From Pedobacter sp. PACM 27299 (GTDB lineage Bacteria; Bacteroidota; Bacteroidia; Sphingobacteriales; Sphingobacteriaceae), in NCBI RefSeq assembly GCF_001412655.1, contig NZ_CP012996.1:1550001-1614000 (forward strand): a stretch of DNA of 64,000 bases, in the 5' to 3' direction. The notes beneath the pieces are model-generated. The model made no database searches. It was not told the origin of the DNA and saw nothing but the letters and a program-made list of their open reading frames with translations. A program made the position numbers and the translations under genes. Positions 42,517-46,222 of the stretch are shown here, in pieces (within the stretch, counting starts at the first letter, position 1; every line of letters begins with the position of its first letter).

Positions 42517-42552
42517 AAAAAAAGGCTTTGGAATAGTCCAAAGCCTTTTTTT
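42517..42552. terminator. Intrinsic terminator
   Basis: 16-bp perfect stem (AAAAAAAGGCTTTGGA and complement, ATAG loop) with A and T runs. It lies 16 bp beyond the stop of the small lipoprotein gene, in the direction of its transcription. Confidence 0.85.
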
Positions 42553-42568: not shown

Positions 42569-42781
42569 CTAGTGAGCAGCTGGTTTAGCAGCTTCAGTAG
42601 TAGTTTTAACAACTGTATCTTTTACAGTAGAATCAACAACGTTAGTATCAACTGTAGTTACAACAGCACCTGAGTCAGTTAATGTAGTGTCAGTTGATTC
42701 ACCTTTTTTTTCTGATGAACAAGCTGCTACTGATAAAGTGATTGCTAATGCTGCGAAACCTAATTTAAATGCGTTTTTCAT
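42569..42781 (-). CDS. Small Thr/Val-rich lipoprotein, copy 1
   Basis: 70 residues from ATG 42781 (the frame is open to 42880 but the upstream part spans the promoter motif). Signal peptide II MKNAFKLGFAALAITLSVAA with lipobox Cys21, then SSEKKGEST and a low-complexity Thr/Val/Asp tail (TTVDTNVVDSTVKDT) ending in EAAKPAAH. The first ~56 residues are identical to the product of the neighbouring gene at 43041; only the extreme C-termini differ. Most likely a surface or periplasmic envelope lipoprotein without a folded domain. The upstream GGGTTACC-N14-GTATTAAT motif links it to the ECF sigma operon. Confidence 0.85.
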   Translation of the reverse strand: MKNAFKLGFAALAITLSVAACSSEKKGESTDTTLTDSGAVVTTVDTNVVDSTVKDTVVKTTTEAAKPAAH

Positions 42782-42818: not shown

Positions 42819-42848
42819 ATTAATACCCTATATCCGAAAAGGTAACCC
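42819..42848 (-). promoter_or_regulatory. Candidate ECF-sigma promoter, GGGTTACC-N14-GTATTAAT
   Basis: On the minus strand GGGTTACC (42848-42841), 14-nt spacer, GTATTAAT (42826-42819), 37 bp before the lipoprotein ATG. The same bipartite element with identical spacing precedes the second lipoprotein and the ECF sigma gene, while the spacers differ between all three. Confidence 0.65.
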
Positions 42849-42987
42849 AGGTAATCCAATTTATTTTTATTTTTTTTCAAACTTTTTTTTCAAGGCCTGA
42901 AATCAGGGAGAAAGTGGTTATTTGGTGATTACTTTCCATTTTACGCCTGGTAATACCTGCTGATTTAGGGCAGCAAAATATAAATGC

Positions 42988-43027
42988 AACAAAAAAGGTG
43001 CTGGAGAAATCCAGCACCTTTTTTGTT
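42988..43027. terminator. Intrinsic terminator
   Basis: 18-bp stem (core AAAAAAGGTGCTGGA and complement) closed by a GAAA tetraloop with flanking T run, 13 bp beyond the stop of lipoprotein copy 2. Confidence 0.85.
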
Positions 43028-43040
43028 TAGCCTTTTGAGC

Positions 43041-43256
43041 TTATTTTTTAGTTACAGTGTCAGTAGCAACAGTAGTAGTTTTTACAGTAGTATCTTTTAC
43101 TGTAGAATCAACAACGTTAGTATCAACTGTAGTAACAACAGCACCTGAATCAGTTAATGTAGTATCAGTTGATTCACCTTTTTTTTCTGATGAACAAGCT
43201 GCTACTGATAAAGTGATTGCTAAAGCTGCAAAGCCTAATTTAAATGCGTTTTTCAT
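43041..43256 (-). CDS. Small Thr/Val-rich lipoprotein, copy 2
   Basis: 71 residues. Same signal peptide and lipobox (LSVAAC) and identical sequence to copy 1 through about residue 56, then TVKTTTVATDTVTKK in place of the Ala/Pro tail. Each copy has its own terminator and its own GGGTTACC-N14-GTATTAAT element, so they are expressed as separate short mRNAs. Function unknown; small abundant lipoproteins under an envelope-stress sigma factor are known in other phyla (for example Lpp-like), which makes an envelope-stabilising or sensing role a reasonable guess. Confidence 0.85.
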   Translation of the reverse strand: MKNAFKLGFAALAITLSVAACSSEKKGESTDTTLTDSGAVVTTVDTNVVDSTVKDTTVKTTTVATDTVTKK

Positions 43257-43292
43257 TATAAGTCTATTTTAAATAATTAATTAATTTTGCAG

Positions 43293-43322
43293 ATTAATAC
43301 CTGAAAGATTAAAAGGTAACCC
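43293..43322 (-). promoter_or_regulatory. Candidate ECF-sigma promoter, GGGTTACC-N14-GTATTAAT
   Basis: On the minus strand GGGTTACC (43322-43315), 14-nt spacer, GTATTAAT (43300-43293), 36 bp before the ATG of lipoprotein copy 2. It lies back to back with the sigma gene's copy, 112 bp apart. Confidence 0.65.
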
Positions 43323-43434
43323 GTTCAATTCAAAAAAAAATAAAATATTTTTATTTGACGAATTTGGATCTGCAGACGTTATGTTAAGGTATTAGGGAAA
43401 GATCAGAAAAAAGTATTTTTTTTTGGTTAACATT

Positions 43435-43464
43435 GGGTTACCATTCACGTATAAATGTATTAAT
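43435..43464 (+). promoter_or_regulatory. Candidate ECF-sigma autoregulatory promoter, GGGTTACC-N14-GTATTAAT
   Basis: GGGTTACC (43435-43442), 14-nt spacer, GTATTAAT (43457-43464), only 2 bp before the GTG start of the sigma gene. The closeness to the start codon is odd for a -10 box: it implies a leaderless message, a downstream non-standard start, or an operator role here. Confidence 0.6.
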
Positions 43465-43466
43465 TG

Positions 43467-44033
43467 GTGAGTAATAAGTTAAGCAGTTCAGTTCCAACAG
43501 ATAGAGAGGTAGTTTTAGGGATACTAAATGACTCGGAAGATACGCTAAATAAACTGTACACCGGATATTTTCCGATGGTATTGCAGTTTATCCTGAATAA
43601 TAACGGTGATGAGGATGATGCAAAAGACGTGTATCAGGAAGGAATCATCGTATTATACAATAAAATAAAGGGCGGAAATTTTGAATTGAGCAGTAAACTA
43701 AAGACCTATATATACTCAGTTTGCAGAAGGATTTGGTTGAAGAAACTTTCCCAGGAAAGCCGGAAAACCAATAACATCTCGGATTTTGAGGATATCATGG
43801 CAGTAGAGGTAGATTTGGAGCAGCATGAAGAAAAAGATCAGCAGTTTGATAAAATGAACGATGCACTTCTTCATCTTGGTGAACCTTGCAAGACCATTAT
43901 TCAGGATTTTTACATCAACGGTCTGTCTATGCAGGACATTTGTGAGAAATTTGGCTATACCAATACGGATAATGCCAAAACTCAAAAATATAAATGCTTA
44001 CAAAGGCTGAAGAAATTGTTTTTTCAAGTTTAA
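43467..44033 (+). CDS. ECF-type RNA polymerase sigma factor
   Basis: 188 residues, sigma-70 family group 4. Region 2 (YTGYFPMVLQFILNNNGDED to YIYSVCRRIWLKKL, about 29-95) and region 4 (PCKTIIQDFYINGLSMQDICEKFGYTNTDNAKTQKYKCLQRL, about 135-185) are present; no region 3. There is no ATG: the frame is closed by TAA at 43461, leaving TTG 43464 or GTG 43467 as the only usable starts before region 2. It is followed 7 nt later by the membrane anti-sigma/protease gene, a pairing typical of ECF sigma factors and their regulators. Confidence 0.9.
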   Translation: MSNKLSSSVPTDREVVLGILNDSEDTLNKLYTGYFPMVLQFILNNNGDEDDAKDVYQEGIIVLYNKIKGGNFELSSKLKTYIYSVCRRIWLKKLSQESRKTNNISDFEDIMAVEVDLEQHEEKDQQFDKMNDALLHLGEPCKTIIQDFYINGLSMQDICEKFGYTNTDNAKTQKYKCLQRLKKLFFQV

Positions 44034-44040
44034 AGGTGAT

Positions 44041-45129
44041 ATGAGAAACGAGATTGAGTTAGAGGGTATAATTGAAGATTATTTAAATGGTAAGCTTTCT
44101 GAGACAGAAAGAGTAGCTTTTGAGCAGCTTCGCAAGAACGATCCAACGGTGGATCATAAAGTAGTTGCGCATAAAGTTTTTCTGGATTCTTTAGGAGAGT
44201 ATGCCAATAAAATGGATTTAAAAGCGAAAATGGATCGCGCCCATGCAGAGATTGATGTGGAGAGCTTAACAGAAGCGTTAAGACCTCATCCTTCCCGTAT
44301 CATCAACTTATGGAGAAAAAATAAAGCAGCGATCGCCGTTGCCGCCTCTTTCATCCTTTTAACAATTGTGACCGTTTATTCTATCCAGCAAAACACCAAA
44401 CAGATTGGTAGTGTTGAACTGGTCAGCAGAGAATTAACGAAAATTAAAAATTCTCAAAGCAGCCTGATCAGGATCATCAATTCTAAAAATACACCTAAAA
44501 ATGTGAAACCTGCTAATTTTGGAGGAACAGGCTTTGCATTAACCGCCAACGGTTACTTACTGACCAATCTGCATGTAGTAGATGGTGCTGATTCTGTATA
44601 TGTTCAGGATAGTAAAGGTGATTCTTATAAAGCTAAAGTAGTCAGAACAGATTCTCAGTACGATTTGGCCATTCTAAAAATTACAGATCGTTCATTCAGC
44701 TCGCTTTCTAACCTTCCTTACCGATTGAAACAAAGCGGAATAGGGATGGGGGATGTGGTGTATACTTTAGGGTTCCCTAAAGATGATGCCGTATTTGGCG
44801 AAGGTTATGTGAGCTCAAAAACAGGTTATAATGGAGATACGACACAATATCAGGTAGCAATTCCTGTAAACCCGGGAAATAGCGGTGGTCCTTTATTAGA
44901 CCATCAGGGAAACATCATCGGTGTCATCTCTGCGAAAGAGAAACAAGTAGATGGTGCAACGTTTGCGATTAAATCAAAATATATTCAAGAGGCTTTAAAC
45001 TCTATTCCTAATGATTCTTTAGGTAAAAAAGTAGCCTTCAATAAAAGAAATTCTTTGCAAGGCCTGAGCAGAAATAAACAGGTGCAGAAAATACAGGATT
45101 ATGTGTTCATGATCAAAGTATACAAATAG
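44041..45129 (+). CDS. Membrane-anchored trypsin-like (HtrA-type) protease with anti-sigma-like N-terminus
   Basis: 362 residues. The cytoplasmic part (1-94) begins IIEDYLNGKLSETERVAFEQ, the helical opening common to Bacteroidota anti-sigma factors. A single membrane helix follows (about 96-115, AAIAVAASFILLTIVTVYSI). The periplasmic part is an S1C serine protease with a complete triad: LTNLHVV (H178), YDLAILKI (D208) and PGNSGGPL (S281). No PDZ domain is present, unlike DegP or DegS. Its position 7 nt after an ECF sigma gene suggests that it binds and restrains the sigma factor inside while its protease domain senses or cleaves outside. That coupling is inferred. A terminator follows. Confidence 0.88.
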   Translation: MRNEIELEGIIEDYLNGKLSETERVAFEQLRKNDPTVDHKVVAHKVFLDSLGEYANKMDLKAKMDRAHAEIDVESLTEALRPHPSRIINLWRKNKAAIAVAASFILLTIVTVYSIQQNTKQIGSVELVSRELTKIKNSQSSLIRIINSKNTPKNVKPANFGGTGFALTANGYLLTNLHVVDGADSVYVQDSKGDSYKAKVVRTDSQYDLAILKITDRSFSSLSNLPYRLKQSGIGMGDVVYTLGFPKDDAVFGEGYVSSKTGYNGDTTQYQVAIPVNPGNSGGPLLDHQGNIIGVISAKEKQVDGATFAIKSKYIQEALNSIPNDSLGKKVAFNKRNSLQGLSRNKQVQKIQDYVFMIKVYK

Positions 45130-45150: not shown

Positions 45151-45190
45151 AAGACCCTACAGCTGATCTCGCTGTAGGGTCTTCTTTTTT
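45151..45190 (+). terminator. Intrinsic terminator
   Basis: 13-bp perfect stem (AAGACCCTACAGC / GCTGTAGGGTCTT, 7-nt loop) followed by CTTTTTT, closing the sigma-protease operon. Confidence 0.9.
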
Positions 45191-45274: not shown

Positions 45275-46222
45275 ATGGATTTTGGAAAGGTTACCACAGA
45301 TGAACTTCAAAGAATAGATTTTAGCCTGCCAGCTGATGGCGAGCAAACTGCGCTGACTTTATCCGGTAAACCTGCAGCAAAAACACCAGCTTTTTATGTG
45401 GGCTGCGCGAAATGGGGTAGAAAAGAATGGGTAAATATGATCTATCCCCCAAAGACTAAAGAGGCCAATTTTTTGGATGAATATGTGAAGCATTTTAATG
45501 CAATCGAACTAAATGCTGTTTTCTATAGTCTGCCAAAGCCGGAGCAAATCAGGAAATGGAAAGAAAAGGCAGCCCTGAATTCCAAGAATGGGTTTCTTTT
45601 CTGTCCGAAGTTTTCTCAGTCCATTACTCATATGAAAAGGCTAAAGGGCGCAGAAGAAGTCACGGATGTATTCCTCTCTGGTATCTCGGAATTCGGCGAA
45701 TACCTCGGGCCCTGTTTTCTCCAGATGGGAGATAATTTTGGACCAAAAAACAAAGATGTTTTAACCTCCTATCTCGAATCCCTGCCCGCAGATTTATCCA
45801 TGTTTGTAGAACTTAGAAATCCGGAATGGTTTTCGCAGGAAAGCAATAGGAAACCGCTTTTTGAAGGGTTAGCCAGGTTAAATAAAGGAGCTGCCATTAC
45901 TGATGCTAGCGGCAGAAGGGACGTGATCCATATGGAACTAACCATTCCCGAAGTATTCATCCGCTTTGTAGGGAATGGCGCGGAGTTTAAAGCCTCAGAT
46001 GAAGCCCGAATTGATGAATGGGTGAAACGCATTAAAATATGGCTGGACCTTGGATTGGAGAAGGTTTATTTCTTTTTACACCAGCACGATGAAAAGGATA
46101 CCCCAATTATTGCCAATTATACGATTAAAGCATTTAATAAGCATTTGGGCAGTAAGATTCCGGAAATCAATTTCCTTGGCGGGAAAGATGGAGAAATTAC
46201 AAAAGACCCACAATTATTCTAA
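45275..46222 (+). CDS. DUF72 domain protein
   Basis: 315 residues, TIM-barrel-like DUF72 (YecE) family of unknown function. Characteristic blocks are FYVGCAKWGRKEW at the start of the domain (about 40-52), HFNAIELNAVFYSLPKPEQI, LFCPKFSQSITH, VELRNPEWF and VYFFLHQHDEKDTP. The first ~38 residues (KVTTDELQRIDFSLP) are an extension before the domain. No export signal. No exact promoter seen upstream; the peroxiredoxin gene 53 bp downstream has its own. Confidence 0.9.
   Translation: MDFGKVTTDELQRIDFSLPADGEQTALTLSGKPAAKTPAFYVGCAKWGRKEWVNMIYPPKTKEANFLDEYVKHFNAIELNAVFYSLPKPEQIRKWKEKAALNSKNGFLFCPKFSQSITHMKRLKGAEEVTDVFLSGISEFGEYLGPCFLQMGDNFGPKNKDVLTSYLESLPADLSMFVELRNPEWFSQESNRKPLFEGLARLNKGAAITDASGRRDVIHMELTIPEVFIRFVGNGAEFKASDEARIDEWVKRIKIWLDLGLEKVYFFLHQHDEKDTPIIANYTIKAFNKHLGSKIPEINFLGGKDGEITKDPQLF

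Follow-up and report, generated by a model that had tools for sequence, protein, structure and literature searches.

The window, a stretch of 64,000 nucleotides of DNA, contains an ECF sigma factor gene followed by the gene of a protease-bearing partner, together with two divergent small lipoprotein genes. The sigma/partner operon and each lipoprotein gene are preceded by the same bipartite box, which is an evolutionarily fixed promoter-like element, kept before the same cell-surface genes across several families. The overall picture that we favour, and hold to be probable, is an envelope-stress regulon that would be read by this sigma factor and held in check by a protease-fused membrane inhibitor.

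The promoter-like box in the window and in the host genome

A preliminary description of this DNA had reported three exact copies of the box, GGGTTACC-N14-GTATTAAT, with spacers that differ in sequence, and all of this has been confirmed. The predicted promoter of the sigma/partner operon (43435..43464, plus strand) ends 2 nt 5' of the GTG start codon at 43467. The predicted promoters of the proximal and distal lipoprotein genes (43293..43322 and 42819..42848, both minus strand) lie 36 and 37 nt from the respective ATG. At up to three mismatches the window contains four sites; 100 dinucleotide shuffles gave a mean of 0.48 and never reached four.

The host genome (6,147,290 bases) holds three exact sites, all in the window, one site with one mismatch and one with two, while 0.005 exact and 0.22 one-mismatch sites are expected from the base composition of the window. 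Three exact copies in 6.15 Mb are not a product of chance. Sites with three mismatches have been discarded as background because, at this limit, the box is rarer in the genome than the reversed-pattern control (44 versus 73 sites). At genome position 4,544,495 the 7+7 pattern has a one-mismatch site within an open frame of 510 codons, which was also taken as chance. The 36 genomes of the genus together have 105 sites with at most one mismatch, compared with 14 for the reversed pattern. The near-exact sites are not randomly placed, and orthologous sigma loci do carry the motif (see below), and so neither of two findings that the preliminary description had set against its own proposal, random placement through the genome and absence from those loci, was obtained. 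Its caution that the duplicated lipoprotein genes leave two independent promoters holds for the window but has been overcome by the relatives.

Box consensus

The consensus of the box is GGGTTAC-N15/16-GTATTAA between 7-mers, equal to N14/15 in the 8-mer counting of the preliminary description. Across 118 sigma promoters, which were picked by N14 spacing and at most one mismatch, GGGTTAC and GTATTAA are near-constant, partly as a result of that selection, and position 8 of either box is free to vary. The pair of 8-mers in the preliminary description thus comes down to a pair of 7-mers. In the 8-mer counting, the spacing before sigma genes is 14 in 118 loci and 15 in 7. The two boxes do not have the symmetry of a palindromic operator. 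Directly 3' of the -35 box, the sequence is ATT(T/C) at the sigma genes and usually TTTT at the lipoprotein genes.

Compared with the SigW-type promoters of B. subtilis (TGAAAC...CGTA), the box shares the T-run after the -35 element, at the lipoprotein genes, and GTA in the -10 element, but has TAC in place of AAC and a spacer shorter by ~2 nt. A review (PMC8103513) gives AAC in the -35 and CGT in the -10 element as hallmarks of the early studied ECF promoters. The box departs from both, with TAC in 118/118 sigma promoters and a C before the GT of the -10 element in 32 of the 118. The AAC/CGT pair is a hallmark of the studied ECF members and does not define the protein family.

The sigma gene and its orthologous loci

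The sigma gene (43467..44033, plus strand) encodes 188 aa from its GTG and matches Pfam Sigma70_r2 and TIGR02937 above cut-off; regions 2 and 4 of a sigma factor are both present. The open reading frame as listed is 189 aa long and begins at TTG 43464; its protein scores 31.7 bits with PF04542 (cut-off 24) and 84.8 with TIGR02937 (cut-off 42.9, residues 27-184 of 189). A clear orthologue, with at least 78% identity, is present in 34 of the 35 other genomes of the genus, the exception being G014.

For the box scan 163 sigma loci were fetched and 135 with distinct start regions were kept, and the best GGGTTAC/GTATTAA pair was scored in -110..+20 at N13-N15 in the 8-mer counting (N14-N16 between 7-mers). 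The sigma clade comprises 126 loci with at least 42% identity to the sigma factor of the window; the remaining nine (L159-L167) are distant. The box precedes sigma in 125 of the 126 clade loci, exactly in 117, with one mismatch in seven and two in one, counts that are non-independent trials as the loci are related to each other. Partner presence in the clade loci was compiled with 19 loci from the family-wide search and L187 left out, and by a pattern search, which gave 94 of the 104 loci tried. The single clade locus without a box at the usual place, L158, nevertheless has the sigma gene, a protease-fused partner and the conserved region-4 helix. A site with three mismatches lies ~135 nt upstream at this locus.

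Among the nine distant loci, one has a match with two mismatches (L165, a sigma locus without the fused partner) and eight have four or more. In three of the distant loci, L159-L161, the box is absent and the partner differs, having no protease domain. The region-4 helix of sigma is near-fixed in the clade rows shown (GYTN.[DE]NAK.QKYKCL.RLK), L158 included, and differs in the distant relatives. The presence of the same box before sigma and before its putative targets is compatible with a predicted autoregulation.

Distribution across genomes

A search of 151 genomes of the family detected the partner in 136, from 20 of 25 genera. One of the 15 genomes first scored without it, G202, has the partner split over contigs, giving 137 genomes with and 14 without. 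Exact box sites occur in 131 of the 151 genomes, and only seven reversed-control sites occur in all 151 together. The exact box is present in 131/137 genomes with the partner and in 0/14 without it (Fisher p 2e-15, a test on non-independent genomes, with several of the 14 partner-less ones small or incomplete). G065, which lacks both partner and exact box, is assembled as one contig of 4.3 Mb at 99% completeness. Of six partner-less genomes searched at a looser cut-off, four gave protease-domain matches only and two gave none; the other eight were scored by the family-wide search. Six family genomes that have the partner lack an exact box site.

In G014, a genome of the same genus, neither sigma nor partner was found at the cut-offs used, and the box is nonetheless kept before two regulon genes (L277, L306). 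The locus may have been lost from this 620-contig assembly, it may be truly lost, or another sigma factor may read the box. Across the phylum, 34 of 395 genomes have a partner match at E <=1e-50. Twenty-nine of these are in families f1, f25, f29 and f30, three of them aligning only from residue 41-82 on, and the five in families f36 and f43 span little beyond the protease. Named partner-bearing records include Pedobacter, Niabella and Chitinophagaceae, and the closest named relatives of the partner protein are from Pedobacter, with 99% identity at best.

The conservation, fixed spacing, asymmetry and co-occurrence with the partner agree with the proposal of the preliminary description that an ECF-type promoter element is common to the sigma operon and the adjoining lipoprotein genes. 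Judged from sequence, the box is highly likely to be a promoter read by this sigma factor. Another regulator, whether activator or repressor, could instead use the box as an operator and co-regulate these genes. The -35 core TTAC, which departs from the usual AAC, the retention of the box in G014 without sigma, and the purely sequence-based assignment as a promoter would all fit an operator. Its strict asymmetry, its fixed spacing, its position just upstream of starts and its co-occurrence with the partner gene of the sigma factor argue against one, as does the window, where no other regulator gene is found between the neighbouring genes, and we regard an operator as very improbable.

Lipoprotein genes and predicted unlinked targets

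The proximal lipoprotein gene (43041..43256, minus strand) encodes 71 aa with a signal peptide and a lipobox ending in ...SVAAC, and the distal gene (42569..42781, minus strand), its tandem duplicate, encodes 70 aa. The hairpin search placed an intrinsic terminator-like hairpin of 18 pairs after the proximal gene (42988..43027, minus strand) and one of 13 pairs after the partner gene (45151..45183, plus strand); the region has four such hairpins, where 2.0 are expected from shuffles. By eye, GGCTTTGG and CCAAAGCC can be seen to pair in a further hairpin, which has a T run, near 42521-42550, after the distal gene.

Upstream sequence of 700 nt or more is available for 122 loci, and 115 of these have a small divergent ORF that encodes a lipobox. 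The box, at up to two mismatches and within 110 nt, precedes 183 of 200 divergent lipoprotein ORFs and is absent from 17 in the same search; the reversed control gave 0. It ends 29-47 nt before the ATG in 176 of the 183, and up to four box-bearing lipoprotein copies are found in tandem in the genus. The two proteins of the window resemble the PG1828 family lipoproteins (NF050142) in being short lipoproteins with a partial profile match, at 44.4 and 43.9 bits below the cut-off of 50. They differ in gene context, since a related sigma gene within ~1.5 kb is missing from 27 of 30 fetched NF050142 loci. A link to a SigH-PG1828 pairing in Porphyromonas, which we had presumed from locus-tag numbers, was dropped, as only three of the 30 loci have a related sigma gene nearby and all three come from the module described here.

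The locus had been described as a self-contained regulon, and this no longer holds, as the box is also found elsewhere, where the genes behind it encode a DUF4349 lipoprotein, a ~450-aa membrane protein and other products. Twenty-six off-locus sites were read, namely all 25 sites with at most one mismatch from the genus set and the two-mismatch site of the host genome of the window, and 24 of them precede genes judged to be envelope-related. Twelve are located before a DUF4349-type lipoprotein gene, four before further small lipoprotein genes, three before the ~450-aa membrane protein gene, three before the gene of a ~100-aa protein that is itself followed by a DUF72 gene, one before a DUF2459 protein gene and one before the gene of a 106-aa protein. 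The names DUF4349 and DUF2459 are from Pfam, and the ~100-aa, DUF2459 and 106-aa proteins were judged to be membrane proteins by eye. The other two sites, L123 inside an open frame and L128 with the nearest ORF 325 nt away, were taken as chance.

In the reverse test, the box at up to two mismatches was found upstream of 30/30 DUF4349 orthologues (30 of the 36 genomes searched have one), 15 of the boxes being exact, 14 with one mismatch and one with two; the reversed control never had fewer than three. For the 452-aa membrane protein family, which has matches in seven of the 36 genomes, the box is present with at most one mismatch at seven of eight matches, and the eighth is a partial paralogue. 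A DUF72 gene also follows the operon in the window (45275-46222). At L113, L125 and L134 it is the box-bearing gene of the ~100-aa membrane protein that precedes a DUF72-looking gene.

The partner protein

Only 7 nt separate the sigma stop codon from the partner gene (44041..45129, plus strand). Pfam, model and fold searches divide its product into a helical N-terminal domain that is putatively anti-sigma-like, a predicted transmembrane helix and an S1C/HtrA protease. The trypsin-like domain PF13365 scores 88.3 bits (cut-off 27.6), and the catalytic triad H178, D208 and S281 is invariant in 31/31 relatives. The best matches among solved structures include MucD and DegS without PDZ. A PDZ match was not found in Pfam and ~40 residues follow the protease domain; with the DegS equivalog TIGR02038 the partner scores 69.3, below the cut-off of 422.95.

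In the structure model (mean pLDDT 73), residues 2-79 contain helices, a long helix occupies residues 84-118 and a helical stalk residues 125-147, and the protease begins at residue 159. The helix 84-118 is read as a membrane span between the two domains, in a model whose pLDDT drops under 50 in a large part of 99-156, which takes in some of the membrane helix. The last ~15 residues of the protein (KxQDYVFMxKVY) are among its most conserved stretches, and the C terminus is modelled as a helix and a strand after the protease domain. The conserved C terminus could be a built-in regulatory peptide.

The N-terminal domain modelled alone is helical with a pLDDT of 87. Its fold search returned 3hug chains in four of 15 rows, including the first, at non-significant E values of 5-10. 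As 3hug is the complex of the anti-sigma factor RslA with a sigma domain, the matched chains could be either protein and the rows are only a hint of anti-sigma kinship. Weak zf-HC2 matches occur in 6 of 31 partner relatives (best E 0.004) and not in the partner of the window, and searching solved structures by sequence with this domain returned no meaningful match.

The partner might instead be an ordinary membrane-bound protease that is co-transcribed with sigma, with the sigma factor controlled by something else. The database names are in keeping with this: in the partner search 7,999 proteins were scored, of which 1,724 pass 1e-20, and among the 120 matches listed the named ones are serine protease, protease Do or S1C/trypsin-like peptidase. 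A significant anti-sigma match for the partner was not obtained either. On the other hand, the gene sits at the usual position of an anti-sigma gene and the helical domain precedes one predicted membrane helix. In addition, the L159-L161 partners have an N-terminus that looks similar by eye and have no protease. We regard an ordinary protease as rather improbable; the partner probably functions as an anti-sigma factor.

Proposed mechanism and relation to known systems

The mechanism that we propose for the sigma factor and its inhibitor is as follows. The N-terminal helical domain of the partner would tether sigma at the membrane. The HtrA/DegS-type domain of the same chain, predicted to be periplasmic, would sense faulty envelope proteins or lipoproteins, and partner activity, in the form of self-cleavage or of a shape change followed by intramembrane proteolysis, would release sigma. 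Freed sigma would transcribe its own operon including the partner gene, each of the small divergent lipoprotein genes on its own, and the unlinked envelope genes (the DUF4349 lipoprotein and the ~450-aa membrane protein). Because the partner gene is in the operon, induction would also replenish the inhibitor. That self-cleavage is the release step is a tentative proposal, somewhat short of an even chance.

The closest likeness is to the sigmaE-RseA-DegS system of E. coli. Both have an ECF sigma factor, a membrane partner in the operon, an HtrA-family protease domain and, as predicted here, lipoprotein or envelope targets, and autoregulation is a likely further parallel. The system described here differs in that the inhibitor-like domain and the protease form one polypeptide, without PDZ, and in its GGGTTAC/GTATTAA promoter. 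DegS itself is described in a review (PMC8103513). The partner may be a single-chain RseA-DegS with its own site-1 protease, which cuts itself in response to faulty envelope proteins or the lipoproteins of the regulon; together with a box on the sigma start codon, induction would then favour the inhibitor or a leaderless sigma message. Taken as a whole, this fuller scheme is less likely than not. A flavobacterial ECF-type promoter class, as set out in a transcription start study (PMC9723704), is similar by description in belonging to Bacteroidota and in including a sigma/anti-sigma operon, and differs in that its targets include type IX secretion components.

If true, the proposed mechanism would give a regulatory role to proteins that are now named only "serine protease", and a fused inhibitor-protease could let a single protein both sense stress and set sigma free. 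Bacteroidota have many ECF sigma factors and few defined promoters. Published figures are 50 ECF sigma factors in B. thetaiotaomicron (PMC12596196), no ECF promoter defined in that species as of 2020 (PMC7366714), and a recognised class I anti-sigma factor beside only 6% of Bacteroidetes ECFs (PMC7406223). To this the present analysis adds a sharp ECF consensus, a regulon that several families have kept and a proposed single-protein sensor that lends itself to testing. Listings of open-licence papers showed no earlier account of the box promoter or of an anti-sigma factor fused to HtrA; a large ECF reclassification may already list the sigma group.

The 5' end of the sigma gene

The GTG start of sigma is conserved in 30 loci of the genus, and the upstream TTG is not conserved there. 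In the clade box set the start codons are GTG in 110, TTG in 8 and ATG in 6. In 97 of the 125 clade loci that have it, the box stops 1-2 nt short of the start codon, and in 25 it lies 6-16 nt ahead of that codon; two more boxes abut the start codon by the reading of the script and one is unassigned. With the box of the window ending 2 nt before the conserved GTG, a transcription start 5-8 nt after the box, as the preliminary description expected, would lose the sigma start codon, a consequence that it had missed, and at most loci the sigma transcript would thus be leaderless or lack its start codon. The flavobacterial study (PMC9723704) places its main box at -12 to -5. With the same geometry, +1 would here fall on the last letter of the sigma GTG, and a start 2 nt earlier would give a leaderless sigma mRNA, a class that makes up 5.5% of mRNAs in F. 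psychrophilum in that study.

This arrangement could mean that the box gives an anti-sigma-only transcript, with RNA starting in codons 1-3, the partner translated and sigma not. The autogenous promoter would then be pure negative feedback, and sigma would be made from an upstream promoter. The 97 boxes that end 1-2 nt before the start codon and the +1 predicted from the flavobacterial geometry (PMC9723704) fit such a transcript. A second box upstream of sigma in 35 of the 126 loci, mostly 64-70 nt before the start, could supply a sigma-coding RNA. Yet the 25 boxes at 6-16 nt allow the RNA to include the start codon, a shift of the start by 2 nt is enough for the leaderless mRNA noted above, and the window has no second box before sigma at up to two mismatches. 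An anti-sigma-only transcript is unlikely, in our view. Where the distal second box is present (for example L139, L047 and L049), its spacing is N15.

The first 16 codons of sigma (43467..43514, plus strand) show low synonymous variation in the comparison of genus genes. Over 59 genus-level genes the value is 0.20 for codons 2-16 and 0.69 for the rest of the gene, the second lowest of 168 overlapping windows along it, and the same codons in three other genes give 0.48-0.59. The nucleotides in the first sigma codons therefore seem to matter beyond the encoded protein. In the genus, the conserved stretch extends well into the sigma gene, which is not the case in the rest of the family.
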